Shown: piece by piece, positions 4,199 to 21,114 of the stretch
Layout of the letters: each line of letters begins with the position of its first letter
How positions within the stretch are numbered: the stretch's first letter is position 1
From: Azoarcus sp. DN11
GTDB taxonomy: Bacteria > Pseudomonadota > Gammaproteobacteria > Burkholderiales > Rhodocyclaceae
Assembly: GCF_003628555.1 (NCBI RefSeq)
Contig: NZ_CP021731.1
Location: 1,860,001 to 1,924,000, forward strand
Length of the DNA: 64,000 nucleotides
Direction: 5' to 3'
Notes under the pieces: generated by a model
Databases searched by the model: none
The model's input: only the letters and a program-made list of their open reading frames with translations
Told to the model about the DNA's origin: nothing
Position numbers and translations under genes: made by a program

Positions 4199-4286
4199 GA
4201 AGCGCTCCTTTTGAGAATAACCGTTCGGCCGTGTCGACCTTTGCTGCGCGCATTTTGAGGGTTACGGATGTTTGCTTAAATATGGA

Positions 4287-4312
4287 ATAATCGAAATTAC
4301 TTTTTCGATTAT
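4287..4312. promoter_or_regulatory. Perfect inverted repeat, likely LysR autoregulatory site
   Basis: ATAATCGAAA (4287-4296) and TTTCGATTAT (4303-4312) are exact inverted copies separated by 6 bases. They end 7 bases before the LysR start at 4320 and sit in the divergent promoter of the DoxX gene. Position and symmetry fit an operator for the adjacent LysR protein. Binding is inferred. Confidence 0.6.
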
Positions 4313-4319
4313 CGATAAA

Positions 4320-5231
4320 ATGTCCATCGATCGTTTTGAGGCAATGCGCGTCTTCTGCCGTATCGTCGAAATGGGCAGCTTCAGTCGCGCTGCCCGGCAT
4401 CTCAGCATGTCGAATTCTTCGGCGACCAACCACCTCACGAACCTGGAAGGACACCTCGGCGTCCGGCTGCTCAACCGGACGACGCGCAAGCTTTCCCTGA
4501 CCGACGAGGGCCGAGCCTGTTACGAGCGGGGCCGCGACTTGCTGGATGGACTCGGCGAATTGGAGGAGGGCTTGCGGGGGGCGAAAGTCGTGCCCCGGGG
4601 GGTACTCCGGGTGGACGTGCCGACCGCCATCGGGCGCATGTATGTTGCCCCGGCGCTGCCTCGTTTCGCTGAGCTTTATCCCGAGGTGACCGTCAGGATG
4701 ACGCTCGGTGACCAGGTTCTCGCGCCAGAAGAAGCGGGCGTGGATGTTTCCATCCGCATCGGGGACCTTAAGGATTCGGCGCGCGTGGCAAGGACGCTTC
4801 ATCAGACGCACTACGTCTGCTGCGCGTCGCCTGAGTTCCTCGCCCGGTACGGTACGCCGGCGGTGCCGCAGGATCTGGCAAGGTATCCGCAGATCGGTTT
4901 CCTGCAGCCGACCTCGAGGCAACCCGTTCCCTGGTTCTTCAGAAAAGGCGATACCGCATTCGAGCAAATGCCGGAAGCCCGCATCTGGATCAATCACGCC
5001 GAATCGTTGATCGACGCGGCGATATCCGGCGGCGGCGTGGTCCAGCTTTTTTCGCTTTCGCTGCAGCGCCATTTCGCGAGTGGGGTCCTCGTGCCGATCC
5101 TGGCGGACTGGTCGGCGCCGGGTCCGCCGATATCGGTCCTCTATCCACCAAGCCGCTACCAGCCCGCGAAGATCAGCGCGTTCGTAAAGTTCGTGAGCGA
5201 GCTGTTTGATGATCAGCTCGACGAAGGGTAG
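4320..5231 (+). CDS. LysR-family transcriptional regulator
   Basis: This is a 303-residue DNA-binding regulator. The N-terminal winged helix-turn-helix spans roughly residues 1-60 (FEAMRVFCRIVEMGSFSRAA, then a recognition helix in SNSSATNHLTNLE). It is followed by a linker helix and a periplasmic-binding-protein-like effector domain (about 90-295). It belongs to the CrgA-like subgroup by overall appearance. Start ATG 4320 was preferred to the upstream in-frame start at 4272 because homology begins at MSIDRFEAMRVF and the inverted repeat lies between the two. Divergent from the DoxX gene, it is not obviously tied to creatine metabolism. Confidence 0.88.
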   Translation: MSIDRFEAMRVFCRIVEMGSFSRAARHLSMSNSSATNHLTNLEGHLGVRLLNRTTRKLSLTDEGRACYERGRDLLDGLGELEEGLRGAKVVPRGVLRVDVPTAIGRMYVAPALPRFAELYPEVTVRMTLGDQVLAPEEAGVDVSIRIGDLKDSARVARTLHQTHYVCCASPEFLARYGTPAVPQDLARYPQIGFLQPTSRQPVPWFFRKGDTAFEQMPEARIWINHAESLIDAAISGGGVVQLFSLSLQRHFASGVLVPILADWSAPGPPISVLYPPSRYQPAKISAFVKFVSELFDDQLDEG

Positions 5232-5303: not shown

Positions 5304-5330
5304 GAAATAATGAGATATTAATTGTCAATA
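5304..5330 (+). promoter_or_regulatory. LysR-type box upstream of amidohydrolase copy 1
   Basis: This 27-base element aligns without gaps with those at 13652-13678 and 17109-17135. The core is TAAT-N5-ATTA, which satisfies T-N11-A (T5308, A5320), flanked by a shared 5' GMAATAAT and 3' TTGTMAATA. A TAGTAT hexamer at 5351-5356, 21 bases downstream, could be the -10 and would put the core around -55 to -70, the usual LysR recognition position. It lies 89 bases before the gene start. Confidence 0.65.
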
Positions 5331-5418
5331 TATAGATCAATCGTATTGGCTAGTATTCCTCCGGGCAAGTACCCCTCTGTCGCGCACCTGAGCGCAAACC
5401 TGCCTGGAGACGGATCAC

Positions 5419-6105
5419 ATGGAAAGCCCGCTCAATGAGATGCTCAAACAAGCCTTCGCACAAGCCACCAAGCTGTACCAGGAGCGCGGCTTCCAGCGCC
5501 GCGTGGGCTTTGGCAAGAAGCCGGCGCTGATCAACGTCGACCTCGCCAATGCCTGGACGCGCCCGGGCAACCCCTTCACCTGCGAGAAGATCGACGACGA
5601 GATCATCCCCGGCGTGCAGCGCCTGCTGAAGGCGTGCCGCGAGAACAATCATCCGGTGATCCACGTGACGACCTGCTACCAAGTCACCGACCGCAACAAT
5701 CCGAATACTGACATGGGCCTGTGGCACAACAAGATTCCGGTCGATGTCGTGAATCAGGCAGACGAGAACATCTGGGCGATCGACTCGCGCATCGCGCCGA
5801 TCGCCGGTGAGCAGGTGCTGGTCAAGAAGCGCGCGAGCTCCTTCCATGGCACCTACCTCGCGGGCTTCCTGCGCGCGGCCGGGGTCGACACCATCCTCGT
5901 GACCGGCGTGACCGCATCGGCCTGCGTGCGCACGACGCTGTGCGACGGCTTGGCCGAAGGCTTCCGCACGATCGCCGTGCGCGAGTGCATCGGCGACCGC
6001 GTGCCCGGCGCGGTCGAGTGGAACCTGTTCGACATCGACGCCAAGTTCGCCGACGTGGAGTCGGTCGATCGCTGCGTCGACTACCTGTACTCGATGAAGG
6101 GCTGA
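5419..6105 (+). CDS. N-carbamoylsarcosine amidohydrolase, copy 1
   Basis: The enzyme hydrolyses N-carbamoylsarcosine to sarcosine, CO2 and ammonia (EC 3.5.1.59), the last step of creatinine breakdown through N-methylhydantoin. It is a 228-residue cysteine hydrolase of the isochorismatase fold. It shares long identities with the Arthrobacter enzyme, for example LYQERGFQRRVGFG, DLANAWTRPG and WNLFDIDAKFADVES. The triad is Asp41, Lys136 and Cys169 (VTASACVRTT), equivalent to Asp51/Lys144/Cys177. The Arthrobacter protein has about 30 extra C-terminal residues. From codon 7 to the stop the DNA is identical to copy 2 at 13773. The first residues (MESPLNE) differ. It is transcribed alone after an AT-rich LysR-type promoter. 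Confidence 0.93.
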   Translation: MESPLNEMLKQAFAQATKLYQERGFQRRVGFGKKPALINVDLANAWTRPGNPFTCEKIDDEIIPGVQRLLKACRENNHPVIHVTTCYQVTDRNNPNTDMGLWHNKIPVDVVNQADENIWAIDSRIAPIAGEQVLVKKRASSFHGTYLAGFLRAAGVDTILVTGVTASACVRTTLCDGLAEGFRTIAVRECIGDRVPGAVEWNLFDIDAKFADVESVDRCVDYLYSMKG

Positions 6106-6109
6106 TTCC
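5439..6109 (+). repeat. 671-bp exact repeat, copy 1
   Basis: Bases 5439-6109 are identical to 13793-14463 (offset 8354). The block covers nearly the whole N-carbamoylsarcosine amidohydrolase gene and stops 4 bases after its stop codon. Flanks on both sides differ, so the repeat boundary coincides with the gene and no insertion-sequence ends are visible. Confidence 0.95.
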
Positions 6110-7000
6110 GGTCGGGCCGGGTGAGGCGCGCGCGCCCTGGGCGGCCCCTCGCTGGTGAATGCATGCCCGAAATCAACAACTGATGGCGAAGACGGTCGCG
6201 GCCCGAACGCCGGGGCGAAGCCATACGAAATTGGCAAACGGGTTAATAACACAGATTCAGAAAATGAATTGAATCCGATAGTCGAGATCCGTGTGGAAAT
6301 TATTCCGGGTTAGCTCCATTTTCTGCGAAAGAAATTTCCATGCTCTGCACAAATCAAGTGCGTAGATAAAGCTTGCTATATTTTATGGCGGCTGCAGATC
6401 GTTCTGCCGACTTGAAGGCGTTTTGGTGAACTATTAGATTGTCGAGCAAGCGCACGGCTGTCCGTGATTAATCCGTATTTGATCGCAGGTATTGTCAATG
6501 GACGAATTGTGCGAAAAATAAATTTGCGCGGCAATCGTTCCGGTACGAGCGCCATGAATTCCCCTTCGCTCTGACATCATATCCATCCTTGTTTGCGCTT
6601 GAAATGGCGAAAAATCTTGTAGATACAAGATAATAGGCGCCGTTGCAAGTGATTTTATACAGGGTGGAATTCCGCCCTTCGTGATGGAATGTGACGTGCC
6701 GATCCTGATTCGGAGAGGACGTTAGAATCGTCACGTCCATATTTTTCATTTCAGATTCAGGTTTGCCGGAATCACCGTTCCGGATGTCTCTTATTGTCCA
6801 TGACGAGTTCCAATGGGGTGGAGGTGAGGTGGCATAAAATCAGTTCGCGCATCAATGCCCCAGGAAGAGACATTAATAATGCGCCTTGCACAAGTGTGGT
6901 GCGGCAAATGAAAAGATAATCAAAAAAAAGGTCTGATTGGATTCGTAATAATTGGCGTCTCCTGCGGGAATTTCTTGTGTTTCCGATTTCTCGTTAAGTT
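6110..7000. other. AT-rich intergenic region without recognisable gene
   Basis: Nearly 900 bases between the amidohydrolase and the N-methylhydantoinase promoter hold no convincing gene. Short reading frames on the minus strand (for example 6495-6749) have no family resemblance, and their codon use is unlike the neighbours. From about 6240 on the base composition is clearly more AT-rich than the rest of the window. A TTGCAC/GTGCGGCAA partial dyad around 6885-6907 lies about 100 bases upstream of the sigma-54 promoter. It could belong to an activator site, but it is weak. Confidence 0.6.
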
Positions 7001-7016
7001 GGCATTGCAATTGCTT
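7001..7016 (+). promoter_or_regulatory. Sigma-54 (RpoN) -24/-12 promoter
   Basis: The sequence TGGCATTGCAATTGCT matches the consensus TGGCAC-N5-TTGC[A/T] at all but one base. GG and GC are separated by exactly 10 bases, which is the strict requirement. Transcription would begin near 7027, leaving a 5' leader of about 26 bases that contains the CAGGAGA ribosome site (7041-7047) and the start at 7053. An enhancer-binding activator must exist elsewhere. Confidence 0.75.
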
Positions 7017-7052
7017 ACCGGTTAATTGCCAATTTATTTTCAGGAGACTGTT

Positions 7053-9149
7053 ATGGCAAGAATCGGAGTAGACGTCGGAGGCACCTTTACGGATCTGGTG
7101 CTTGAGGTCGAAGGGGAGGACCAAGGCAAGCATCGGGTCTACGTGCATAAGGTGCCGAGCACTCCATGGGATCAGTCGGAAGGGGTGCTGGGCGGCATCC
7201 TGGAGATTTGCCGCATCGGCGGAATTTATCCCAGCGATGTGCGCCTGATCGTGCACGGCACGACGGTCGCGACCAATATCACGATCGAGCACAATGGCGC
7301 CGAGGTCGGGATGCTCACGACGCGGGGCTTCCGCGACATCCTGCACATCGGCCGGCACAAGCGTCCGGAGAATTTCTCCCTGCAGTTCGACGTGCCGTGG
7401 CAGTCGCGCCCGCTGGTGAAGCGGCGCAACCGTATCGCCATTAGCGAGCGCATCATGCCGCCGCACGGCGAGGTGATCCAGGTGCTGGCCGAAGACGAAG
7501 TGCGCGCCGCCGCCGAACTCTTCAAGGCGCGCGGCATCCGCTCCGTGATCGTGTGTTTCCTCTATTCGTTCCTGAACGATGCGCACGAACGCCGCGCGAA
7601 GGAGATCATTCAGGAGGTGCTGCCCGATGCCTACGTCTCGTGCTCCTCGGAGGTCGCGAACGTCATCCGCGAGTACGAGCGCTTCTCGACGACGGCGATG
7701 AACGCCTACGTCGGCCCCAAGACATCCCTCTACCTGAAGAATCTCGAGCATAAACTCGTCGATGCAGGGATCAAGGCGCACCTGCGCATCATGCAGTCGA
7801 ACGGCGGCGTGTCGACGGTCGAGAAGTGCTCGAAGGAGGCCGTCACGATCCTGATGTCGGGGCTTGCCGGCGGCGTGATGGGCGGCCGCTGGGCCGGCGC
7901 GCTGTCGGAGGAGAAGAACGTCATCACCGTCGACATCGGCGGCACGTCGGCGGACTTCAGCACGATCCCCGACGGCAAGGTGAAGATCATGAACCCGCGC
8001 GACACCTACGTCGGCGCGTATCCGATCCTCGCGCCGATGATCGACCTCGCGACGATGGGGGCGGGCGGGGGCTCGATCGCCTACATCGACGAAGGCGGCG
8101 CCTTCCGCGTCGGGCCGCGTTCGGCCGGCGCCGATCCGGGACCGGCATGTTACGGCAAGGGCGGCACGGAGCCGACCGTCACCGACGCACAAGTCGTGCT
8201 GGGGCGTCTCGACCCCGACCATTTCCTCGGCGGCGGCATCGAGATCGACGCCGGGCTCGCGCGCGAAGCGATCCGCACGAAGGTCGCAGAGCCGCTCGGG
8301 CTCACGGTCGAAGAGGCCGCGCTCGGCATCATCCGTATCCTCAACTCCAACATGTCGCTCGCGATCCGCGCGAATTCGGTCGCCAAGGGCTACGACCCGC
8401 GCAAGTTCGCGCTCGCCCCGTTCGGCGGTGCGGGGCCGCTCAACGGCGTTGCGCTCGCCGAAGCGGTGTCGGCGCGCGAAGTGATCGTGCCGCCCGCGCC
8501 GGGAATCACCGCGGCGATCGGGCTGCTCGTCACCGACATGCAGTACGAGTTCACGCGCTCGGTGCCGACGCTGCTCAAGGACGTCGAACAGCCCGCGCTC
8601 GACAGGCTCAACCGCGTGATCGACGAGCTCACGGCGCTGTGCCGCGAGCGGCTCGACGACGATGGCGTGCCGGCTGACAACCAGCACTTCGTGCGCATCG
8701 CCGAATGCCGCTACCACGGACAGGGCTTCGAACTGCGCGCGGACATCCCCAACGGCCGGATCGACGGCGAGAAGCTCGCCGCGGTCAAGGCGAACTTCCA
8801 GGCACAGCACCGGCGGGACTACGGCTGGGCGTTCGACGACGTCGATGTCGAGATCGTGACGATCCGCATCATCGGCATCGCCCGCACCCGGCCGCTCGCG
8901 TGGCCCGAACTGGAGAATGCCGCCGGCAGCGGGCCCGAAGCGGCGCTGATGTACGAGCGGCCGACGATCTTCGATGACCGGAAGACCTACGCGACACCGC
9001 GCTATGACAGGAAGAAGCTGAAGGCCGGGCACGAGCTGTCCGGCCCCGCGATCATCGTCCAGCACGACTCGACGACGCTGGTTCCGCCGGGCTACGTCGC
9101 GCGGGTTTCGGCCAAGGGCAACATCCATATCAATGCGCAGCGCGTCTAA
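7053..9149 (+). CDS. N-methylhydantoinase (ATP-hydrolysing) subunit A
   Basis: This is the 698-residue ATP-binding subunit of a hydantoinase A/B type enzyme. The likely reaction is ATP-dependent opening of N-methylhydantoin to N-carbamoylsarcosine (EC 3.5.2.14). The actin-like ATPase fold shows DVGGTFTD at 7-14, HGTTVATN near 68-75, a second phosphate loop DIGGTSADF near 294 and GGAGP near 459. Hydantoinase A N-terminal, central and C-terminal domains follow in the usual order. Homologues also act as 5-oxoprolinase, acetone carboxylase or caprolactamase. The N-methylhydantoin assignment rests on the flanking N-carbamoylsarcosine amidohydrolases. Start ATG 7053 has a good ribosome site (CAGGAGA), and the in-frame start at 7026 lies at the predicted transcription start. 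Confidence 0.88.
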   Translation: MARIGVDVGGTFTDLVLEVEGEDQGKHRVYVHKVPSTPWDQSEGVLGGILEICRIGGIYPSDVRLIVHGTTVATNITIEHNGAEVGMLTTRGFRDILHIGRHKRPENFSLQFDVPWQSRPLVKRRNRIAISERIMPPHGEVIQVLAEDEVRAAAELFKARGIRSVIVCFLYSFLNDAHERRAKEIIQEVLPDAYVSCSSEVANVIREYERFSTTAMNAYVGPKTSLYLKNLEHKLVDAGIKAHLRIMQSNGGVSTVEKCSKEAVTILMSGLAGGVMGGRWAGALSEEKNVITVDIGGTSADFSTIPDGKVKIMNPRDTYVGAYPILAPMIDLATMGAGGGSIAYIDEGGAFRVGPRSAGADPGPACYGKGGTEPTVTDAQVVLGRLDPDHFLGGGIEIDAGLAREAIRTKVAEPLGLTVEEAALGIIRILNSNMSLAIRANSVAKGYDPRKFALAPFGGAGPLNGVALAEAVSAREVIVPPAPGITAAIGLLVTDMQYEFTRSVPTLLKDVEQPALDRLNRVIDELTALCRERLDDDGVPADNQHFVRIAECRYHGQGFELRADIPNGRIDGEKLAAVKANFQAQHRRDYGWAFDDVDVEIVTIRIIGIARTRPLAWPELENAAGSGPEAALMYERPTIFDDRKTYATPRYDRKKLKAGHELSGPAIIVQHDSTTLVPPGYVARVSAKGNIHINAQRV

Positions 9150-9159
9150 GGAGAAGCAG

Positions 9160-10968
9160 ATGCATCCGTCCAGCACCAAGGTCGACCCGATCACCCTGCA
9201 GGTCATCAGCGGCGCGCTGCACACCATCGCCGAGGAGATGGGCCACGTGCTCTATCGCATGTCCTTCTCGTCGATCATCCGCGAGTCGCAGGACATCGGC
9301 GCAGGCCTCTTCGACCTGCAGTTCAACACGCTCACCGAGTCCGAGGGTTCGCCGCTGCACATCGGCTCGATTCCCGCCTACCTGCGCGGCATCGACCAAT
9401 GCCTGCAGGGCGGCGTGTGGAACGAGGGCGACGTCGTCCTGCACAACCATCCGTACTACGGTGCAAGCCACAGCCCGGACCTGTGCATCGTCGTGCCGGT
9501 GTTCTGGCGCGGCGAGCTCGTCGCCTTCGCGGCCAACACCGCGCATCACGTCGACATCGGCGCGGCGACACCGGGCCTCATCATCGACATCCCGGACGTC
9601 TTCGCCGAGGGCATGCTCTTCGCCGGCATCAAGCTCTACGAGGGCGGCAAGCGCAACGAGGGCCTGTGGCAGTACATCGGCCACAACAGCCGCACCGCGA
9701 AGCAGACCAGGGACGACATCGACGCGCAGATCGCCTCGGCGATGCTCGGCGCGCAGCGGCTGCGCGAGTTGCTCGATACCCATGGCAAGGAGACGGTGTT
9801 CGGTGCCGCGGACCAGCTCATGGACTACACCGAGACCATGATGCGCAGCCGCATCGCCGAGATTCCCGATGGCGAATACTTCGCCGAAGGCTATCTCGAC
9901 GACGACGGCGCGAACCGCGACAAGCGCCTGCCGATCAAGGTCTGCGTGCGCGTCACCGGCGACAGCGTCGAGGTCGACCTCACCGGCTCGGCCGATCAGG
10001 TGCCGACCGGCTTCAACGTGCCTTTCGAAGGTTCGACCAAGCCGGCCTGCTACTGCGCCTTCCGCGCGATGCTCACCGATGCCGCGCTGATGGAGGTGAA
10101 GCTGCCGCCGAACGAAGGCTCCTTCCGTCCGATCAAGGTCACGGCGCCGAAAGGTTCGATCTTCAACCCGATCTACCCGGCCGCCGCCGAGGCGCGCTTC
10201 ACGCAGTGCAACCGGATGATCGACCTCATCATCAAGGCGCTCGCGCCGGTGATCCCGCAGCGGGTCACGGCTGGCAACTCGGCGACGCTGTCCTTCGCCG
10301 CGTACTCGGGCATCAAGGCCGATGGCGACTACTGGGTATTCCTCGAAGTCAATGAGGGCGCCTACGGCGGCCGGCCGCATTCGGACGGACCGGACTCGAT
10401 CGACAACCTGATGGCCAACACGCGCAACAACCCGATCGAGGATCTCGGCATGCACCTGCCGATGGTGTGCGACCGCTACGAGCTGCGCGACGACGTGGTG
10501 CCCGGAGCGGGGCAGTTTCGCGGCGGCATCGGCGTTGTCAAGACGCAGCGCCTGCTCACCGACGGTGCGATCACGCACGAGTCCGAGCGCCACCTCGACG
10601 TGCCATGGGGTGCCTTCGGCGGCGCTGACGGCGCCGCGGGACGGGTCGAGATCTTCCACGCGAACGGAACGACGTACGACACCTACGCCAAGTTCTCGAA
10701 CCTGCGCGTGGAGGCAGGGGGCGGCATGTCGTACTACGCGCCCTGCGGCGGTGGCTATGGCGACCCGCTCGACCGTCCCGCCCGCAAGGTGCTCGAGGAT
10801 GTCATGGACGATTTCTGCACCCTCGACCACGCCCGCGAGGTCTATGGAGTGATCATCTCCGGGGACCTCCTCCTCGACGAGGCGGCCACGCAGGCGCGCC
10901 GCACGCTGCTCCGCCTGGAGCGGCAGACGGCGGACGCGATGCCCGCTCCCGAGCCCGCGCCGGCCTGA
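9160..10968 (+). CDS. N-methylhydantoinase subunit B
   Basis: This is the 602-residue partner of subunit A, carrying the hydantoinase B/oxoprolinase domain over most of its length. Family hallmarks are PITLQVISGALHTIAEEMG at the N-terminus, RESQDIGAGLFD, the GDVVLHNHPYYGASHSPDL metal/active-site region and the C-terminal GGGGMSYYAPCGGGYGDPLDR type glycine-rich segment (here EAGGGMSYYAPCGGGYGDPL). Start ATG 9160 follows AAGGAGAAG after the hyuA stop at 9149, so the two are co-translated. An earlier in-frame start at 9133 would overlap hyuA and has no ribosome site. A heterooligomer with subunit A is expected. Confidence 0.9.
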   Translation: MHPSSTKVDPITLQVISGALHTIAEEMGHVLYRMSFSSIIRESQDIGAGLFDLQFNTLTESEGSPLHIGSIPAYLRGIDQCLQGGVWNEGDVVLHNHPYYGASHSPDLCIVVPVFWRGELVAFAANTAHHVDIGAATPGLIIDIPDVFAEGMLFAGIKLYEGGKRNEGLWQYIGHNSRTAKQTRDDIDAQIASAMLGAQRLRELLDTHGKETVFGAADQLMDYTETMMRSRIAEIPDGEYFAEGYLDDDGANRDKRLPIKVCVRVTGDSVEVDLTGSADQVPTGFNVPFEGSTKPACYCAFRAMLTDAALMEVKLPPNEGSFRPIKVTAPKGSIFNPIYPAAAEARFTQCNRMIDLIIKALAPVIPQRVTAGNSATLSFAAYSGIKADGDYWVFLEVNEGAYGGRPHSDGPDSIDNLMANTRNNPIEDLGMHLPMVCDRYELRDDVVPGAGQFRGGIGVVKTQRLLTDGAITHESERHLDVPWGAFGGADGAAGRVEIFHANGTTYDTYAKFSNLRVEAGGGMSYYAPCGGGYGDPLDRPARKVLEDVMDDFCTLDHAREVYGVIISGDLLLDEAATQARRTLLRLERQTADAMPAPEPAPA

Positions 10969-11009
10969 CCGGCGCGGCAGCACCCACCCCGTAATCCGTA
11001 GCTCCGACA

Positions 11010-11031
11010 CACCCGGCCGCAAGGCCGGGTG
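11010..11031 (+). terminator. Intercistronic hairpin
   Basis: A perfect 9-bp stem CACCCGGCC/GGCCGGGTG with a GCAA tetraloop lies 41 bases after subunit B. It has no T-run, so it may stabilise or attenuate the transcript between the hydantoinase and permease genes rather than end it. Confidence 0.5.
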
Positions 11032-11108
11032 GGGAGGCGTGCGCACGTGTTTCGCGCGTGTGTCCGTGAACTCATTAGACAAATTTGAAAATCATCAGGA
11101 GGTAAGTC

Positions 11109-12599
11109 GTGAGCGTTCATAACAACACGCAGTCCGAGATCTGGAACGAGGACCTCGCCCCGACCGATCCGGCCCACAGGACCTGGCGCTGGCAGGATTA
11201 CGCCGCCCTGTGGATCGGCATGGTCATGTGCATCCCATGCTACATGCTGGCGGCGGGTCTGATGGACCAGGGCATGTCGGCGACCCAGTCGGTCATGATC
11301 GTGCTTGCCGGCAATGCCATCGTGTTGATTCCCATGCTGTTGATCGGTCATCCCGGCGCCCGCTACGGCGTGCCCTTCGCGGTGCTGGTGCGATCGTCCT
11401 TTGGCGTGCAGGGCAACAAATTGCCGGCCTTGTTGCGGGCACTGGTCGCCTGCGGCTGGTTCGGCATCCAGTGCTGGGTGGGAGGAAGTGCCATCTATGC
11501 AATCGGCAATCTTCTGAGCGGCGGCCTGCTGGTGGGGCCGAAGATGGCGTGGGCCGGTGTCAACGCGGGGCAATTGGTGTGCTTCTTCATTTTCTGGGCG
11601 CTCCATCTTTATTTCATCGCCCGGGGGCCGGAGTCGGTGAGGAAGATCGAGACCTTCACCGCTCCCCTCAAAGTCGTGATCGTGCTCGCGCTGCTGTGGT
11701 GGGCCTACGACAAGGCTGACGGCTTCGGCCTGATGTTCTCCGCGCCGTCCCAATTCGGTCCTGGCGGTCAGAAGGAGGGCCAGTTCTGGGCAGTATTCTG
11801 GCCATCGCTCACGGCGATGGCGGGGTTCTGGTCGACGCTGGCGATGAACATCCCCGACTTCACGCGCTTTTCCGCGTCCCAGCGCGAACACTACGTGGGC
11901 CAGGCGGTCGGCCTGCCGATCCCGATGGCCTTGCTGGCATTCGTCGGTGTCGCCGTCACCTCCGCCACCGTCGTCATCTATGGCAAGGCGATCTGGGACC
12001 CGGTCGACCTGGCGAGCCGGATGGAAGGCGTCGCCGTGGCGATCGGCCTGGCGATCATCACCCTCGATACGCTGTGCGTGAACCTCGCGGCCAATACGGT
12101 CGCGCCGGCCTACGACTTCGCCGCCATCTTCCCGCGGCATGTCAACTTCGCCCGGGGAGGCTTCATCACGGCGGTCATCGGTGTCGTGATCATGCCGTGG
12201 AAGCTCGCGGAATCCACCCAGGGCTACATCTTTACCTGGCTCATCGGCTACGGCGCGCTGCTCGGGCCGGTGCTCGGGATCATGCTGGCCGATTACTGGC
12301 TGATCCGCCGCACGCGGCTCGATGTCGACGATCTCTTCGACTTGAACGGACGGTATGCCTACCGGAACGGCTGGAATGTGTCTGCGCTGATCGCGTTCGC
12401 CAGCGGCGTCCTGCCGAACCTGCCGGGATTCCTCCACGCCGCCTTTCCCGTTGCTTTTGCCGAAGTGCCGGCGTTCTTCACGGAACTCTACAACTACGCG
12501 TGGTTTGTGGGCCTGTTCCTGTCCCTTGGGGTTTACCGGTTGTTGATGGCTTCCGAAACCGTACGGGTGAGCCAGGGTCTTGCCGTCGAAAGAGTCTGA
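11109..12599 (+). CDS. NCS1-family permease, hydantoin/creatinine-type uptake
   Basis: This is a 496-residue inner-membrane symporter with about 12 hydrophobic segments. The third segment reads ACGWFGIQCWVGG. Its Trp117 and Gln121 fall at the same numbers as the hydantoin-contacting Trp117 and Gln121 of the Na+/benzylhydantoin symporter Mhp1. GFWSTLAMNIPDFTRF (Trp241) and NLAANTVAPAYD (Asn325/Asn329) correspond to further substrate-site regions. N-methylhydantoin, hydantoin or creatinine is therefore the likely substrate, with cytosine or allantoin as the main alternatives. The start is GTG 11109 with a strong AGGAGGT site at 11097-11103. It follows the hydantoinase genes on the same strand and precedes an outer-membrane channel gene. 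Confidence 0.88.
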   Translation: MSVHNNTQSEIWNEDLAPTDPAHRTWRWQDYAALWIGMVMCIPCYMLAAGLMDQGMSATQSVMIVLAGNAIVLIPMLLIGHPGARYGVPFAVLVRSSFGVQGNKLPALLRALVACGWFGIQCWVGGSAIYAIGNLLSGGLLVGPKMAWAGVNAGQLVCFFIFWALHLYFIARGPESVRKIETFTAPLKVVIVLALLWWAYDKADGFGLMFSAPSQFGPGGQKEGQFWAVFWPSLTAMAGFWSTLAMNIPDFTRFSASQREHYVGQAVGLPIPMALLAFVGVAVTSATVVIYGKAIWDPVDLASRMEGVAVAIGLAIITLDTLCVNLAANTVAPAYDFAAIFPRHVNFARGGFITAVIGVVIMPWKLAESTQGYIFTWLIGYGALLGPVLGIMLADYWLIRRTRLDVDDLFDLNGRYAYRNGWNVSALIAFASGVLPNLPGFLHAAFPVAFAEVPAFFTELYNYAWFVGLFLSLGVYRLLMASETVRVSQGLAVERV

Positions 12600-12676
12600 T
12601 CGGGTGCGCAACGGCGCCTGGCCAGCAACACAAATACAGAACCAGAACATCACCACGCACATTAGGAGCATGTGAC

Positions 12677-13492
12677 ATGAATCAGTTATCAGGGAAGATC
12701 GGACTGCGCCGCGTCGGGGCCGTAATCGGCGGCATCCTCGCGTTTATCCTTGCAGGTCATCTCGGTTCCGCGACGGCCTCGGATTGGAGCGAAACCGACG
12801 TGCAGATCCTGAACGGCACGCGTTTCCGCGATCCAGGCAATCCCCACGACGTCACGAAGACGACGGTGACGCTGCAGCACGTGAGCGGCTACGCCTATGG
12901 GCGCAACTACTTCTTTGTGGATTCCTATTGGGGAACGAAGAACGCACCGCGCGCGAACGACATCTACGGTGAGTACTACCACTACCTGAGCCTGGGCAAG
13001 ATCACCGGCGCGAAGTTCGGCGAGGGCGTGCTGAAGGACGTCAGCCTGACCGCGGGCGTCAACGCGGGTGCCTCGACCAGGGGCGCGGCGACGCGGGTCC
13101 TGCTCTACGGCGTGACGCTGGATTTCGCGGTGCCCGGCTTCAGCTACTTCAACGTGGACCTGCTCGCCTACGACGACCGTTCGCAGTTCAACGGCGTGCA
13201 AACCCGTTACCGGAACAGCTACCAGGTGACCCCGGTATGGCGGCTGCCGTTCAGCATCGGCCCCACGCACTGGTCCTTCGAGGGCTTCTGCGACTTCATC
13301 GGCGCGCGCGGGCAGGGCACCGTCAATCAGACCCTGTGCCAGCCGCAACTGCGGCTCGATGTCGGCCAACTCGTGTCGGGTCGCCGCGATGCGTTCTACA
13401 TCGGCACCGAGTACCAGTACTGGCGCAACAAGTATGGCATCGACGGTCTCAATGAGAGCTTCCCCAACATCATGGCCGTCGTGAAGTTCTAG
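12677..13492 (+). CDS. Tsx-like outer-membrane channel
   Basis: This is a 271-residue exported protein. A signal peptide with hydrophobic core VIGGILAFILAGHLGSATA ends near residue 34. The remainder has alternating aromatic/polar strands and ends in phenylalanine (MAVVKF), as expected for a beta-barrel recognised by the Bam machinery. Motifs such as ETDVQILNGTRFRDP and HWSFEGFCDFIGARG resemble the nucleoside-specific channel Tsx family. In this operon it would carry a small cyclic amide (N-methylhydantoin or creatinine) across the outer membrane. That substrate is inferred from context. Start ATG 12677 follows TAGGAG. It is separated from the permease by 77 bases. Confidence 0.8.
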   Translation: MNQLSGKIGLRRVGAVIGGILAFILAGHLGSATASDWSETDVQILNGTRFRDPGNPHDVTKTTVTLQHVSGYAYGRNYFFVDSYWGTKNAPRANDIYGEYYHYLSLGKITGAKFGEGVLKDVSLTAGVNAGASTRGAATRVLLYGVTLDFAVPGFSYFNVDLLAYDDRSQFNGVQTRYRNSYQVTPVWRLPFSIGPTHWSFEGFCDFIGARGQGTVNQTLCQPQLRLDVGQLVSGRRDAFYIGTEYQYWRNKYGIDGLNESFPNIMAVVKF

Positions 13493-13529
13493 GCACATAT
13501 CCGCCGATATTGCGGAGTCGCCGCGGGCG

Positions 13530-13551
13530 GCCGTCGGTCGTTCCCGACGGC
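13530..13551 (+). terminator. Hairpin after channel gene
   Basis: GCCGTCGG (13530-13537) pairs with CCGACGGC (13544-13551) around a 6-base loop, 37 bases after the channel stop. No T-run follows, so its role as a terminator is uncertain. Confidence 0.4.
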
Positions 13552-13651
13552 TCCGTGCTCGTCTCCGTCGACGCCGGGATTTCCTTGTGCCGGCAAGCGG
13601 ATAGGGGCGTTGGCCGCGTGTCGATGATCGCTGAAATAATGTCTTTTAAAC

Positions 13652-13678
13652 GCAATAATATACGATTAATTGTAAATA
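13652..13678 (+). promoter_or_regulatory. LysR-type box upstream of amidohydrolase copy 2
   Basis: This is the second member of the three-site family: TAAT-ATACG-ATTA core (T13656-N11-A13668) with the same flanks as the boxes at 5304 and 17109. TAGTAT at 13701-13706, 23 bases downstream, is the candidate -10. It lies 95 bases before the amidohydrolase start. Upstream bases 13633-13641 also match the 17109 promoter (AAATAATG block at the same spacing). Confidence 0.65.
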
Positions 13679-13772
13679 GACGAAGCAATAGTAGGGCGAC
13701 TAGTATTTCCTGCAGGCAAAGACAACTTTGTCGCAACCCCAAGGATGAAAACGATCTGGAGATCATGCTGAA

Positions 13773-14459
13773 ATGGATACCGAACTGAACACGATGCTCA
13801 AACAAGCCTTCGCACAAGCCACCAAGCTGTACCAGGAGCGCGGCTTCCAGCGCCGCGTGGGCTTTGGCAAGAAGCCGGCGCTGATCAACGTCGACCTCGC
13901 CAATGCCTGGACGCGCCCGGGCAACCCCTTCACCTGCGAGAAGATCGACGACGAGATCATCCCCGGCGTGCAGCGCCTGCTGAAGGCGTGCCGCGAGAAC
14001 AATCATCCGGTGATCCACGTGACGACCTGCTACCAAGTCACCGACCGCAACAATCCGAATACTGACATGGGCCTGTGGCACAACAAGATTCCGGTCGATG
14101 TCGTGAATCAGGCAGACGAGAACATCTGGGCGATCGACTCGCGCATCGCGCCGATCGCCGGTGAGCAGGTGCTGGTCAAGAAGCGCGCGAGCTCCTTCCA
14201 TGGCACCTACCTCGCGGGCTTCCTGCGCGCGGCCGGGGTCGACACCATCCTCGTGACCGGCGTGACCGCATCGGCCTGCGTGCGCACGACGCTGTGCGAC
14301 GGCTTGGCCGAAGGCTTCCGCACGATCGCCGTGCGCGAGTGCATCGGCGACCGCGTGCCCGGCGCGGTCGAGTGGAACCTGTTCGACATCGACGCCAAGT
14401 TCGCCGACGTGGAGTCGGTCGATCGCTGCGTCGACTACCTGTACTCGATGAAGGGCTGA
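13773..14459 (+). CDS. N-carbamoylsarcosine amidohydrolase, copy 2
   Basis: This is the second gene for the 228-residue enzyme that turns N-carbamoylsarcosine into sarcosine. Residues 8-228 are identical to copy 1 and so is the DNA. Only the first seven codons differ (MDTELNT). The catalytic Asp41, Lys136 and Cys169 are all present, so both copies should be active. It follows the Tsx-like channel gene after 280 bases and has its own LysR-type promoter region. The upstream regions of the two copies share short elements but are not duplicated. An identical body with different ends and promoters suggests recent duplication or continuing gene conversion. Confidence 0.93.
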   Translation: MDTELNTMLKQAFAQATKLYQERGFQRRVGFGKKPALINVDLANAWTRPGNPFTCEKIDDEIIPGVQRLLKACRENNHPVIHVTTCYQVTDRNNPNTDMGLWHNKIPVDVVNQADENIWAIDSRIAPIAGEQVLVKKRASSFHGTYLAGFLRAAGVDTILVTGVTASACVRTTLCDGLAEGFRTIAVRECIGDRVPGAVEWNLFDIDAKFADVESVDRCVDYLYSMKG

Positions 14460-14463
14460 TTCC
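13793..14463 (+). repeat. 671-bp exact repeat, copy 2
   Basis: Identical to 5439-6109 on the same strand. Recombination between the two direct copies would delete or amplify the 8.35-kb segment carrying the N-methylhydantoinase, permease and channel genes. Confidence 0.95.
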
Positions 14464-14646
14464 CGGTTTCCGTGCGACGGCCGGGGCTGCGCGATCGCGT
14501 GGTCCCGGCAACCTTGATTTTCGGGAGGAACTTCACATAGCGAGATCGTAAGCCCGGTGGCCCTTTACTGGCCGCCCCAGGATGGATGTAGTGCCCGAAT
14601 CACGACCAAAAAAATAAACGGGAAGTATTCGATCGAGGAGACATGG

Positions 14647-15999
14647 ATGACTACAACTGTATTGGAAGGCGCCCATATAGGCGCACGCCGTTCGGGAGTG
14701 CAGAGGGTGAATTCGACATATCGCAAGATAACCTCGCGCCTCATGCCCTTCCTGTTTATCTGCTATGTGGCGGCCTATCTCGACCGCATCAACGTCGGTT
14801 TTGCCCAACTGCAGATGAAGGACGCGCTTGGCTTCAGTGACGCCGTTTACGGACTCGGCGCCGGAATCTTCTTTGCCGGCTATTTCCTTTTCGAGGTGCC
14901 CAGCAACCTGATCCTCGAGAAGATCGGGGCGCGAAAGACATTGGTGCGCATCATGGTGCTCTGGGGCCTCACGTCCGCCAGCATGATGTTCATCACCACG
15001 CCCACCGTGTTCTATGTCTTGCGATTCCTGCTCGGCGTGTTCGAGGCCGGATTCTTCCCGGGCATGATCTACTACCTCACGTTCTGGTACCCGGCGAACC
15101 GGCGCGGGCGAGTCATGGCGCTCTTTCTGACTGCGGTCGCGATGGCCGGCGTCGTGGGCGGGCCGCTTTCGGGCTGGGTGATGGGCAAACTGACGGGTTT
15201 GCACGGCTTGGGCGGCTGGCAGTGGATGTTCCTGATCGAGGGGGTGCCGTCCTGCGCCCTCGGGATCATCGCCTACTTTTACCTCGACGATCGGCCTCAA
15301 CATGCGAAGTGGCTGACCGAAGAAGAAAAATCGATCGTCGTCGATCAGTTGCGCCGTGATCATGACAACACCCCGTTCTTTCACGACCATTCGTTCGGCG
15401 ATGCGATGAAGTCGCCGCGTGTGTACGCGATGGCGCTGACCTGGTTCACGTTCATCTGCGGGGTCTATGCGATCAGCTTTTGGCTGCCGACCTTGATCAA
15501 GGGGGCGGGCGTCACCGATATCTTCTCCATCGGCATGTACTCGGCGATTCCCTACGGTACGGCGGTGCTGACGATGATCCTCGTCTGCCGCCATTCCGAT
15601 GCGACGGGAGAGCGGCGTTGGCACGCTGCGCTTTGTGCGTTCATCGGTGCGGTTGCGCTGGCCTCGATCTCGCAGACTGCAGGCGATCTCACGTTGTCGC
15701 TCGCGGTGATGAGCGTCGCGACCGCCGGGATCTTCACGCTGCAACCGCTGTTCTGGGCGATCGCCACCGATTTCCTCGGGGGTACGAAGGCGGCAGCGGG
15801 GACTATCGCCTTCATCAACAGCCTCGGTTTGATAGGTGGCTTCGCGAGCCCCACGATACTGGGGTGGGTTAAGGTCACGACGGGCAGCCTCAGCAACGGC
15901 TTGTTCCTGATTGCGGGCTTCCTCACGATCGGCGCCCTGATCACGCTGCGGTTCCGCAAGTGGGGGAAGACGCAGGCGTCCCTACGGCACGCAGCCTGA
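14647..15999 (+). CDS. MFS transporter, anion:cation symporter type
   Basis: This is a 450-residue inner-membrane carrier of the major facilitator superfamily. Twelve hydrophobic segments can be placed. The family signature between segments 2 and 3 is represented by LILEKIGARKTLVRIM, and segment 1 carries CYVAAYLDRINVGFA, typical of the tartrate/phthalate/hydroxyphenylacetate (ACS) family. Such carriers import organic acids with protons. Substrate unknown. Start ATG 14647 is preferred: GAGGAG at 14635-14640 precedes it, and homology begins shortly after. It follows amidohydrolase copy 2 after 187 bases and ends at a strong terminator facing a convergent LysR gene. Confidence 0.88.
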   Translation: MTTTVLEGAHIGARRSGVQRVNSTYRKITSRLMPFLFICYVAAYLDRINVGFAQLQMKDALGFSDAVYGLGAGIFFAGYFLFEVPSNLILEKIGARKTLVRIMVLWGLTSASMMFITTPTVFYVLRFLLGVFEAGFFPGMIYYLTFWYPANRRGRVMALFLTAVAMAGVVGGPLSGWVMGKLTGLHGLGGWQWMFLIEGVPSCALGIIAYFYLDDRPQHAKWLTEEEKSIVVDQLRRDHDNTPFFHDHSFGDAMKSPRVYAMALTWFTFICGVYAISFWLPTLIKGAGVTDIFSIGMYSAIPYGTAVLTMILVCRHSDATGERRWHAALCAFIGAVALASISQTAGDLTLSLAVMSVATAGIFTLQPLFWAIATDFLGGTKAAAGTIAFINSLGLIGGFASPTILGWVKVTTGSLSNGLFLIAGFLTIGALITLRFRKWGKTQASLRHAA

Positions 16000-16099
16000 C
16001 CCAGTTCTGTGCGATCGAGCCGCATACGTTGTTCGCGGAGATCGCGACCTCGTGCCGAACCGGTTTTCGATCCGCAACCGTTGCTTCTTCCCCGCTCGC

Positions 16100-16137
16100 G
16101 ATCCGCAGGTGCTCCAGGCCTGCGGGTCGCATTTTTT
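16100..16137 (+). terminator. Intrinsic terminator after MFS gene
   Basis: A 10-bp stem (16100-16109 with 16119-16128, one G-T pair) is followed by GCATTTTTT. It separates the MFS gene from the convergent LysR gene ending at 16151. Confidence 0.75.
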
Positions 16138-16150
16138 CATCCCGGTGCCG

Positions 16151-17068
16151 CTATTCCCGTCCCTCATGCGCGATGCCGAATTCCTCGGCGTTGTCGTGGA
16201 GGAACTGCGCGAATCGGTCTACGGTGGGCGTCGGAATGTCCTTGCGCCAGCACACCAGCGTCTCCATCGGCTTTTGGCGTCCTGCCAGCGGGCGGATCAC
16301 GAGGCCCTTGCGTTGGATGTTCTCTGCGCAGCGCGCATACAGCGCCACCCCGATGTTCGCGGCGACCAGCCCGAAGATGCCGTCGCTGGTCGAGGCCTCC
16401 TGCGCGACGGAGGGCGAGAAGTTCGCGGCGTGGCACAGCGCGAAGAAATGTGTGCGGAAGGTCTCCCACGAGTCTTGCGAGCCGAGGATGAACTTCTCGT
16501 TGGCGAGATCGCGGATCGAGATCGAGGGCTTGTTGACGAGTGGATGCGCGGCCGGCAGCAGCACGACCAGGTCCTCGCGCGCGATCATGAGCTGGCTCAC
16601 CGAGGGCGACTCGAAGGGACCGATCAGGAAGCCGATGTCGATGCGCGATTCGAGCAAGGCCTCCTTCTGCTTCGAGCTCGGGAAGTGAAACAGCTCGACC
16701 TTGATGCCCGGATGGGTGTGCAGGAACTTCTCGATGATCATCGGCAGCTTGCCGTTGATCGCAAAGTCCATGTACGCGATGCGCAGGTAGCCCACCTTGC
16801 CGTCGGCGGCCGCCTGCGCGAGCAGCGACGCCTTCTCGATGTGCCCGAGTGCGAGGCGGCATTCGTACAGGAAGGTGCGACCCGCCTCGGTAAGCTGCAC
16901 GACGCGCGTGGTGCGCGACAGCAGCTCCGCGCCGACGGCCTCCTCGAGGTGCTGGATCGTGCGCGTTAGCGCCGACTGCGTCATATGCAGGTGCTCGGCG
17001 GCGGGGCGGAACTGCAGCTCCTCGGCAACCGCGATGAAGGCGCGCATGTGGCGGATTTCGAAGCGCAT
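16151..17068 (-). CDS. LysR-family regulator of the shared-box regulon (proposed)
   Basis: This is a 305-residue LysR-type activator/repressor. The N-terminal helix-turn-helix is MRFEIRHMRAFIAVAEELQF followed by PAAEHLHMTQSALTRTIQHLE. The C-terminal effector-binding domain spans about residues 90-295. It resembles the CbnR/BenM/CatM group more than the CrgA group. It is divergent from the ketosynthase gene, with 152 bases between starts. That gap contains a T-N11-A box matching the boxes before both N-carbamoylsarcosine amidohydrolase copies, so this protein is the best candidate to control all three promoters. The effector is unknown. A pathway intermediate such as N-carbamoylsarcosine or N-methylhydantoin would fit. 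Confidence 0.88.
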   Translation of the reverse strand: MRFEIRHMRAFIAVAEELQFRPAAEHLHMTQSALTRTIQHLEEAVGAELLSRTTRVVQLTEAGRTFLYECRLALGHIEKASLLAQAAADGKVGYLRIAYMDFAINGKLPMIIEKFLHTHPGIKVELFHFPSSKQKEALLESRIDIGFLIGPFESPSVSQLMIAREDLVVLLPAAHPLVNKPSISIRDLANEKFILGSQDSWETFRTHFFALCHAANFSPSVAQEASTSDGIFGLVAANIGVALYARCAENIQRKGLVIRPLAGRQKPMETLVCWRKDIPTPTVDRFAQFLHDNAEEFGIAHEGRE

Positions 17069-17108
17069 GGGAGGGCAGAATCCAGTGAGAAAATAATGAT
17101 CTAAATAA

Positions 17109-17135
17109 GCAATAATCTAACATGAACTGTAAATA
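17109..17135 (+). promoter_or_regulatory. LysR-type box in LysR/ketosynthase divergent promoter
   Basis: This is the third member of the box family: TAAT-CTAAC-ATGA core (T17113-N11-A17125) with flanks GCAATAAT and CTGTAAATA. Candidate -10 TAGGAT lies at 17156-17161, 21 bases downstream, as before copy 1. It is 86 bases from the ketosynthase start. Confidence 0.65.
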
Positions 17136-17220
17136 ATTTATGGAATAGTGTCGATTAGGATTCAGATATCAACGACCGCCCGGGACTGGGCGGCCCGCGA
17201 CATCAACACGAGAGGACACT

Positions 17221-18534
17221 ATGGTTGGAGCAGTTGGGGGGAGGGTGGCGCTGCGGCGCGTGGTCGTGACGGGGTGGGGGCTCGCGACCCCGCTCGGTGT
17301 CGGCGTCGAGCGCACGTGGGCGCGCCTGCTTTCGGGCGAGTCGGGCATCCGCGCGATCGACCGCTTCGAGGTCGGCGACCTGCCCTCGCGCATCGCCGGC
17401 CTGCTGCCCGAAGGCGCCTGTGCCGACGGCGGTTTCGACGCCGATGAATGGGTGCCGGCCAAGGACCAGCGCAAGATGGACCGCTTTGCGATGTACGCGC
17501 TATGTGCGGCCCGGCAGGCGCTCGAGGATGCGGACTGGCAGCCGTCGTCGCAGCACGCGCGCGAGCGGACCGGCGTGCTGATCGGCTCGGGCATCGGTGG
17601 CCTGCCCGCACTCGCTGAAGGCGCCCTGACCCTTGAACACAAGGGCGCACGACGCATCTCGCCCTTCTTCATCCCGTCCGCGCTCGTGAACCTCGCGGCG
17701 GGCCAAGTCGGAATCCGCCATGGCCTGCTGGGACCGACTCACGGTGTGGCGACCGCCTGCGCGAGTGGTGCGCACGCGATCGGCGACGCCGCGCGCATGG
17801 TGATGTTGGGTGACGCCGACGTGATGGTGGCCGGCGGTACTGAGGGCGCCGTGTCGCGCCTGGGCATCGCCGGCTTCTGTGCCGCGCGTGCCCTGTCGAC
17901 CGGCTTCAACGACACGCCGCAGGCTGCCTCCCGCCCGTGGGACGCCGCGCGCGACGGCTTCGTGATCGGCGAGGGCAGCGGCATCGTCGTGCTGGAGGAG
18001 TACGAGCACGCGCGGGCGCGCGGGGTGCGCATCCATGCCGAGGTGCTGGGTTACGGATTGTCCGGCGACGGCTACCACATCGCGGCGCCGCCCGAGGACG
18101 GCGGCGGCGCCCGGCGCGCAATGCGTGCTGCATTGGCCTGGGCGGGCGTTGCCCCGGAGGAAGTGGACTACGTGAACGCCCACGCGACTTCGACACCGCT
18201 CGGTGACCTGGTCGAACTGCGCGCGCTGTGCGAGGTCTTCGGTAGTCACGCCACGCGCGGTGGAGAGGGTGGGCTGTCGGTGTCCTCGACCAAGTCGGCG
18301 ATGGGGCATCTGCTCGGTGCCGCGGGGGCAGTCGAGGCCATCGTATGCATGCTCGCACTGCGCGACCAGATCGTGCCGCCAACGCTCAATCTCGCCGAAC
18401 CGCCGGCGGAATTCGTCGGCATGAACTTCGTGCCCGGCGTTGCCCAGCGCCGTACCGTGCGCACTGCGCTGTCGAACTCCTTCGGTTTTGGCGGGACCAA
18501 TGCAGCGCTGCTCTTCGGTGCCGTCAACGACTGA
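17221..18534 (+). CDS. Beta-ketoacyl-ACP synthase II (FabF-like)
   Basis: This is a 437-residue condensing enzyme of the thiolase fold, close in length to FabF. The Cys-His-His triad is complete: Cys180 in TACASGAHA, His321 in NAHATSTP and His363 in KSAMGHLLGAAG. The C-terminal NSFGFGGTNAALLF motif is also present. It would condense malonyl-ACP with an acyl-ACP. It stands alone, without the acyl carrier protein, FabD or FabG genes that normally surround the housekeeping copy. It is driven from a LysR-type divergent promoter, so it is probably an accessory, inducible ketosynthase. Its product is unknown. Confidence 0.9.
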   Translation: MVGAVGGRVALRRVVVTGWGLATPLGVGVERTWARLLSGESGIRAIDRFEVGDLPSRIAGLLPEGACADGGFDADEWVPAKDQRKMDRFAMYALCAARQALEDADWQPSSQHARERTGVLIGSGIGGLPALAEGALTLEHKGARRISPFFIPSALVNLAAGQVGIRHGLLGPTHGVATACASGAHAIGDAARMVMLGDADVMVAGGTEGAVSRLGIAGFCAARALSTGFNDTPQAASRPWDAARDGFVIGEGSGIVVLEEYEHARARGVRIHAEVLGYGLSGDGYHIAAPPEDGGGARRAMRAALAWAGVAPEEVDYVNAHATSTPLGDLVELRALCEVFGSHATRGGEGGLSVSSTKSAMGHLLGAAGAVEAIVCMLALRDQIVPPTLNLAEPPAEFVGMNFVPGVAQRRTVRTALSNSFGFGGTNAALLFGAVND

Positions 18535-21108: not shown

Positions 21109-21114
21109 TCCACC

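Follow-up and report, generated by a model that had tools for sequence, protein, structure and literature searches.

Why should a gene cluster for the breakdown of a nitrogen-rich waste compound carry its own fatty-acid condensing enzyme, and do the two answer to the same regulator? This question is raised by a 64,000-nucleotide stretch of Azoarcus sp. DN11 (contig NZ_CP021731.1, positions 1,860,001 to 1,924,000; the window), in which creatinase, N-methylhydantoinase and N-carbamoylsarcosine amidohydrolase genes lie together, as judged from sequence matches. By these matches the cluster is of the creatine/creatinine type. An initial annotation of this DNA proposed that a single LysR regulon joins creatinine catabolism to a FabF-like beta-ketoacyl-ACP synthase, on the grounds of three similar elements located upstream of the two amidohydrolase copies and of the ketosynthase gene. 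We examined whether the elements, the LysR gene adjacent to the ketosynthase (hereafter LysR2) and the ketosynthase itself behave as parts of one system in the genome and in its relatives.

The elements were found where they had been placed (5304-5330, 13652-13678 and 17109-17135) and aligned over 27 bases without gaps, with 18 of the 27 columns invariant and pairwise identities of 20/27, 19/27 and 22/27. Each carries the T-N11-A core ascribed to it, and the third lies, as proposed, between LysR2 and the FabF-like gene. A TAG.AT hexamer and a gene start do follow each box; the distances first given for them (21-23 and 86-95 bases) were off by one or two, the counted values being 20, 22 and 20 bases to the hexamer and 88, 94 and 85 to the start. 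With a pattern allowing up to three mismatches, the 4,956,835-base genome, a single contig, yielded three matches, all of them the window boxes, and the reversed pattern yielded none; this pattern had been derived from the three sites themselves. In a fairer test, a matrix built solely from 17 boxes of other genomes of the genus was run on the window. The three boxes ranked first, at 36.6, 35.9 and 24.8 bits; the next best site reached 6.0 and the maximum on the reversed window was 5.1. The likeness of the boxes exceeds chance.

We then determined how the box is distributed among 17 genomes of Aromatoleum, the genus to which named relatives assign the genome under study. A LysR2 ortholog was present in eight of them (89-99% identity besides the self match), the next best match being 37% identical among the 61 genomes taken in by that search. 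The box, at two mismatches or fewer, occurred in the same eight genomes (20 matches; none with the reversed control), as did the amidohydrolase (13 copies). Thus the boxes were conserved in the relatives that keep the genes: box, LysR2 and amidohydrolase were jointly present in 8/17 genomes and jointly absent in 9/17. Twelve of the 20 boxes lie upstream of an amidohydrolase gene, one of these genes being partial and two being divergent from LysR; six lie in the LysR/FabF-like divergon, in six genomes; and two precede an M19 dipeptidase gene. In all eight carriers a box separates LysR2 from its divergent neighbor. The remaining two full-length amidohydrolase copies (in relatives G004 and G006) have boxes that look degraded by eye, the G006 copy scoring 24.4. 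In a sample of 297 genomes of the family, the box at no more than one mismatch was found in five, which are all five known carriers in that sample (carriers G001, G003 and G006 lie outside it). The carriers of the amidohydrolase are patchy, since a class-level search of 369 genomes returned only the genome under study. The co-occurrence of box, LysR2 and amidohydrolase across genomes supports the single regulon put forward by the initial annotation, and we consider it very probable that the three boxes are operators of LysR2, which would activate both amidohydrolase genes and the FabF-like gene and control itself.

Two observations concern individual boxes. In the M19 cases (L068:5698-5723 and L070:8675-8700, in two relatives) a gene for a TRAP-type binding protein comes after the membrane dipeptidase gene; no M19 dipeptidase gene of the window has a box upstream. 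In G015, the copy of amidohydrolase 1 (L067:6859-7150) matches residues 1-59 only, and its box is still recognizable.

The box at the FabF-like gene could nonetheless be a leftover. According to this explanation, an ancestral arrangement of LysR divergent from amidohydrolase and FabF lost its amidohydrolase by deletion, so that the FabF-like gene inherited a promoter and its co-regulation serves no purpose. In its favor, the FabF-like gene of G004 and G014 stands after an amidohydrolase, and in both genomes LysR is divergent from an amidohydrolase, a layout that other genera commonly show. We compared the promoters by segment, leaving the close relative G015 out of both sets. Among five FabF-like/LysR promoters the mean identity was 100% in the left half of the box, 35% in the spacer, 100% in the right half and 47% in the upstream flank; among nine amidohydrolase promoters it was 94%, 43%, 96% and 36%, respectively. 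With invariant half-sites around a spacer of only 35% identity, selection seems to keep the operator at the FabF-like gene. The gene itself is also under constraint. It has no stop codons in any of the eight genomes over the matched stretch, and dN/dS is 0.055-0.166 in 28 pairs (three of the sequences start a few residues late, and dS is in some pairs near or above 1), indicating that it is kept. Its Cys-His-His motifs (TACASG, NAHATST and K...GH), which we take to be the catalytic triad, are intact in 8/8 genus copies. Degenerate FabF or FabB relics were ruled out on the same ground. An origin by deletion is compatible with present use; as an account of a purposeless box, the leftover explanation is unlikely.

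We asked next whether the ketosynthase accompanies the pathway outside the genus, or whether its position is a mere chance of neighborhood. Of the 223 relatives that a scan of named genomes with a LysR2 alignment detected, 80 loci were obtained, and 75 of these loci are outside Aromatoleum/Azoarcus. Amidohydrolase or Hyu genes were also present in the fetched stretch of 46 of these 75, where the amidohydrolase and LysR are often divergent; the other 29 formed a comparison set, in which some loci end at contig ends (e.g. L085, L093 and L155), so that genes may lie beyond. Two loci, L092 of Caballeronia humi and L094 of Paraburkholderia franconis, have a FabF-like gene (69-70% identity) between the amidohydrolase and LysR genes, on one strand, together with GlyA and MFS genes. 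Thirteen further loci have a ketosynthase of 36-40% identity near LysR and pathway genes, with the catalytic motifs kept in 13/13. The best solved-structure matches of the one in Oceanimonas include KAS I enzymes, and Pseudomonas, Thauera and marine gammaproteobacteria have a separate FabB-type clade close to pathway genes. In all, 15 of the 46 creatinine loci and none of the 29 comparison loci had a ketosynthase; the p value of 3e-4 is a guide only, given cuts at contig ends and near relatives among the loci.

A ketosynthase tree of 48 rows (39 different), which includes 14 of the 20 cluster genes known, resolved the cluster genes into two groups. The FabF type forms one of them (10 rows, 7 different, 100/98), distinct from other FabF genes; the FabB type forms the second (14 rows, 9 different, 100/100), distinct from the remaining FabB genes of the same genomes. 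Long branches meet in this tree, including the whole FabB branch with L188/L190, and L162, L191 and L192 look like wrong reading frames; the tree was kept with those rows, and we take the two inner groups to be untouched by them. Of 199 Pseudomonas genomes, two (one of which is the source of the query) have a gene matching the cluster FabB of P. baetica at 91% identity or more, the next best match being 64%. The same two genomes hold the amidohydrolase, 3.8 and 8.2 kb from the FabB-type gene. Chance neighborhood would fit the presence of a ketosynthase in only 15 of the 46 fetched stretches, several from close kin. It is at odds with its absence from all 29 comparison loci, with two separate clades that both stand apart from other FabF/FabB copies of their genomes, and with the joint presence in the same two Pseudomonas genomes; we regard it as quite improbable. 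These results support the view that the ketosynthase belongs with the pathway.

As to origin, the FabF-like protein is 52% identical to its closest paralogue in its own genome; among the best 120 of 7993 matches, those below the cluster FabF group that are named are mostly alphaproteobacterial, at 64-66%, with one from Oryzomicrobium at 68%. The comparison of 64-66% with 52% hints at an alphaproteobacterial source. Separately, locus L127, from a Thauera metagenome-assembled genome, is that of a betaproteobacterium with a FabB-type cluster ketosynthase of an otherwise gammaproteobacterial group, which suggests a transfer of the cluster.

Could a regulator other than LysR2 bind the boxes? The LysR gene that sits immediately upstream of amidohydrolase copy 1 (4272-5231) is the obvious candidate, an unlinked factor being another. 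A copy of the former at 77-100% identity is present in 5 of the 17 genomes (G000, the genome under study, and G002, G006, G015 and G016, the last four each listed with one internal stop codon). Two of these, G002 and G016, have no box, and five of the eight box genomes give only matches of 40% or less; its distribution mismatches that of the box, whereas LysR2 tracks the box without exception (8/8 box genomes, 0/9 others). This gene was consequently ruled out as the box binder, and we hold it very unlikely that any regulator but LysR2 fills that role. We give the least credence to a reading of the box as a core promoter or UP element common to homologous promoters: it is AT-rich and stands at a near-constant distance from a -10-like hexamer, but three different kinds of gene carry it upstream within the genus, it is not found in sampled genomes without LysR2, and its absence elsewhere, in its own genome and in the 297-genome sample, ruled out a generic promoter element.

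Outside the genus, a looser motif was found. A matrix was fitted to 46 amidohydrolase promoters, two more having been set aside because of Ns in one and a contig end at the other, and a motif like G[TC]ATCAAT-N7-AA-rich-GAATTGGA was present in 39 of the 46, which are the fitting set. When the 46 loci (907 kb) were scanned with it, all 50 matches lay within 300 bases upstream of a gene: 39 upstream of amidohydrolase, eight of HyuA and three of DctP. The 39 are nearly all sites used in the fit; the HyuA and DctP promoters were outside it. There was no match on the reversed sequence, nor in the 515 kb of the 29 LysR loci where creatinine genes were not detected. To the eye, several promoters are intermediate between this motif and the Aromatoleum box: those of the Burkholderia group, for example GTAATAAT-N7-TAAATGTAATTGGAC in Pandoraea; two HyuA promoters of the Halomonas group (GCAATAAT...); and the HyuA promoters of G004 and G014, with weak older-type matches of 9.0 and 5.0 bits. 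We infer from this kinship by eye that the two may be one evolving operator; the regulon at the level of the genus is independent of it. The matches upstream of HyuA in G004 and G014 are of the GCAATAGT and GTAATAGT type, with CTAGTAT after them.

The FabB-type promoters of other genera contained no ungapped motif above threshold (best score 7.4). When the spacer was lengthened by one base, Pseudomonas loci L111, L116 and L120, whose promoters are alike, scored 16.6, at a background of 2e-6 per position that yet reached 21.1. Scores were about 8.5 for Marinobacterium L098 and L099 and for P. baetica L104, and 6.2 or less for L100, L102, L107, L108, L113, L119 and L127. There is thus no more than a hint, at some loci, of a direct box at FabB; for Oceanimonas and its relatives, gene order suggests that FabB may instead be read through from the amidohydrolase promoter.

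Several observations weigh against the regulon or its extension to other genera. The box does not read as a clean inverted repeat: by eye, in the alignment of the 20 genus sites, its dyad is imperfect, and the T of T-N11-A is gone in one site. The amidohydrolase promoters of the genus share descent, so that their likeness alone proves little. The FabF-like genes of G004 and G014, placed after an amidohydrolase, have no box of their own. In nine of 11 Caballeronia/Paraburkholderia/Pandoraea loci no FabF-like gene was present in the fetched stretch, some of these stretches ending at contig ends. Seven of the 46 amidohydrolase promoters fail the looser motif; none of the five Aromatoleum/Azoarcus loci scanned with the other-genera matrix had a match reaching 19 bits, and the highest score of the Aromatoleum matrix on the promoters of other genera was 15.0. 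We lean, with moderate confidence, toward a dedicated beta-ketoacyl-ACP synthase being a working part of proteobacterial creatinine/N-methylhydantoin catabolism, recruited at least twice (Aromatoleum, Caballeronia and Paraburkholderia having the FabF type, and Pseudomonas, Thauera and marine gammaproteobacteria the FabB type) and co-induced with the pathway; in Aromatoleum, the LysR of the pathway would do this directly.

We propose that LysR2 would bind the box at about -59 to -34 from the transcription start, as placed from the TAG.AT element, and that on the build-up of a pathway compound, most likely N-methylhydantoin or N-carbamoylsarcosine, it would activate both amidohydrolase copies and the FabF-like gene. 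It would also control its own gene, whose start is 41 bases from the box. The condensing enzyme would then be made alongside the N-carbamoylsarcosine-cleaving step of creatinine-type catabolism. What it might do there is a guess, one we would rate as doubtful: the ketosynthase might sustain fatty-acid elongation, or shift the product mix, while by-products of the pathway, formaldehyde or cyanate for example, impair the housekeeping enzyme.

Features of the window, with positions counted from its first base.
Feature	Positions	Strand	Remarks
Creatinase (creatine amidinohydrolase)	2376..3626	+	1chm, E 2e-203
Second LysR gene	4272..5231	+	Rejected as box-binding regulator
Predicted LysR operator, upstream of amidohydrolase copy 1	5305..5330	+	24.8 bits, weakest of three
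TAG.AT hexamer, -10-like, amidohydrolase copy 1	5351..5356	+	Position conserved in 20-site alignment
N-carbamoylsarcosine amidohydrolase copy 1, isochorismatase fold	5419..6105	+	1nba, E 6e-72; PF00857
Weak candidate operator, older type, upstream of HyuA	6849..6877	+	8.7 bits, gapped scan
HyuA, N-methylhydantoinase subunit	7026..9149	+	7hk5, E 3e-199
HyuB, likely N-methylhydantoinase subunit	9133..10968	+	Caprolactamase-beta family model, 259 bits, under cut-off
NCS1 family transporter	11109..12599	+	TIGR00800, above cut-off
Predicted LysR operator, upstream of amidohydrolase copy 2	13653..13678	+	36.6 bits
TAG.AT hexamer, -10-like, amidohydrolase copy 2	13701..13706	+	20-site alignment
N-carbamoylsarcosine amidohydrolase copy 2	13773..14459	+	Coding sequence differs from copy 1 by 9 bases
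MFS transporter	14557..15999	+	Homologue after FabF-like gene in G001, G003, G010
LysR2, LysR-type regulator, proposed box binder and self-controller	16151..17068	-	PF00126, E 6e-21; PF03466, E 5e-42
Predicted LysR operator, LysR2/FabF-like divergon	17110..17135	+	35.9 bits
TAG.AT hexamer, -10-like, upstream of FabF-like gene	17156..17161	+	20-site alignment
FabF-like beta-ketoacyl-ACP synthase	17221..18534	+	TIGR03150, 571 bits vs cut-off 493.75

LysR2 has both the helix-turn-helix (HTH) and the substrate-binding domain expected from the family matches in the table. The amidohydrolase match to 1nba, which we take to be the Arthrobacter enzyme, spans query residues 2-225, and D41, K136/K137 and C169 are invariant in 11 aligned sequences (1nba not being in that alignment); Asp-Lys-Cys are presumably the catalytic residues of N-carbamoylsarcosine amidohydrolase. 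The creatinase promoter has no match to the box pattern in the genome-wide scan at up to three mismatches, and the older-type matrix scored below zero on three creatinase promoters; the LysR regulon consequently does not cover the whole pathway. In relative G006, sarcosine oxidase, serine hydroxymethyltransferase and serine dehydratase genes adjoin one amidohydrolase copy.

The two amidohydrolase copies share 671 identical bases (5439-6109 and 13793-14463), and their promoters and flanks differ. Identity within a genome (98.7% here, 98.4% in G010 and 99.0% in G004) exceeds that to the other genomes compared, and the copies of G015 and G006 show no clear excess of this kind. The pattern suggests gene conversion. 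Beyond the FabF-like gene, at 19258-24023, lie genes for a FAD/ferredoxin protein and a 2-oxoacid:acceptor oxidoreductase, which adjoin the FabF-like gene in G015 as well.

Divergently transcribed, self-controlled LysR regulons of the AlsR, HcaR and BenM/CatM type are well known. The best family-model scores of LysR2 are those for AlsR and HcaR, both under the cut-offs, and the arrangement is the same, with a LysR gene divergent from its target and an operator in the shared intergenic region. LysR2 differs in its proposed targets, creatinine-type ureide genes and a condensing enzyme, and in an operator dispersed over several promoters. The amidohydrolase is related in sequence to 1nba; here the gene is duplicated and placed under a LysR box. 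Likewise, the cluster ketosynthases share family scores and catalytic motifs with FabF (KAS II) and FabB (KAS I) of fatty-acid synthesis; they differ in being extra paralogues tied to a catabolic cluster. In Corynebacterium glutamicum, the creatine/creatinine genes, including N-carbamoylsarcosine amidase and hyuB homologues, are reported to be controlled by the nitrogen regulator AmtR (PMC8864220), a protein of the TetR family and not, as here, of the LysR type; the words LysR and beta-ketoacyl are absent from the main text of that article. Open-access titles and the beginnings of abstracts, a scope mostly exclusive of subscription journals, contained no LysR control of creatinine, N-carbamoylsarcosine or creatinase genes and no link of a ketosynthase to the N-carbamoylsarcosine pathway; nor did abstract beginnings in this open-access material have anything on Aromatoleum with creatinine.

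In these bacteria, the breakdown of a creatine-type waste and a gene for a fatty-acid-building enzyme share a control sequence that is kept in relatives, which suggests joint induction of the two. This provides a testable regulator and operator for creatine/creatinine breakdown in proteobacteria. It also raises the question of why clusters for nitrogen-waste catabolism should have a fatty-acid condensing enzyme of their own, one apparently acquired on two occasions; the answer could expose a new toxicity of the pathway or a new reaction in a very well studied enzyme family.

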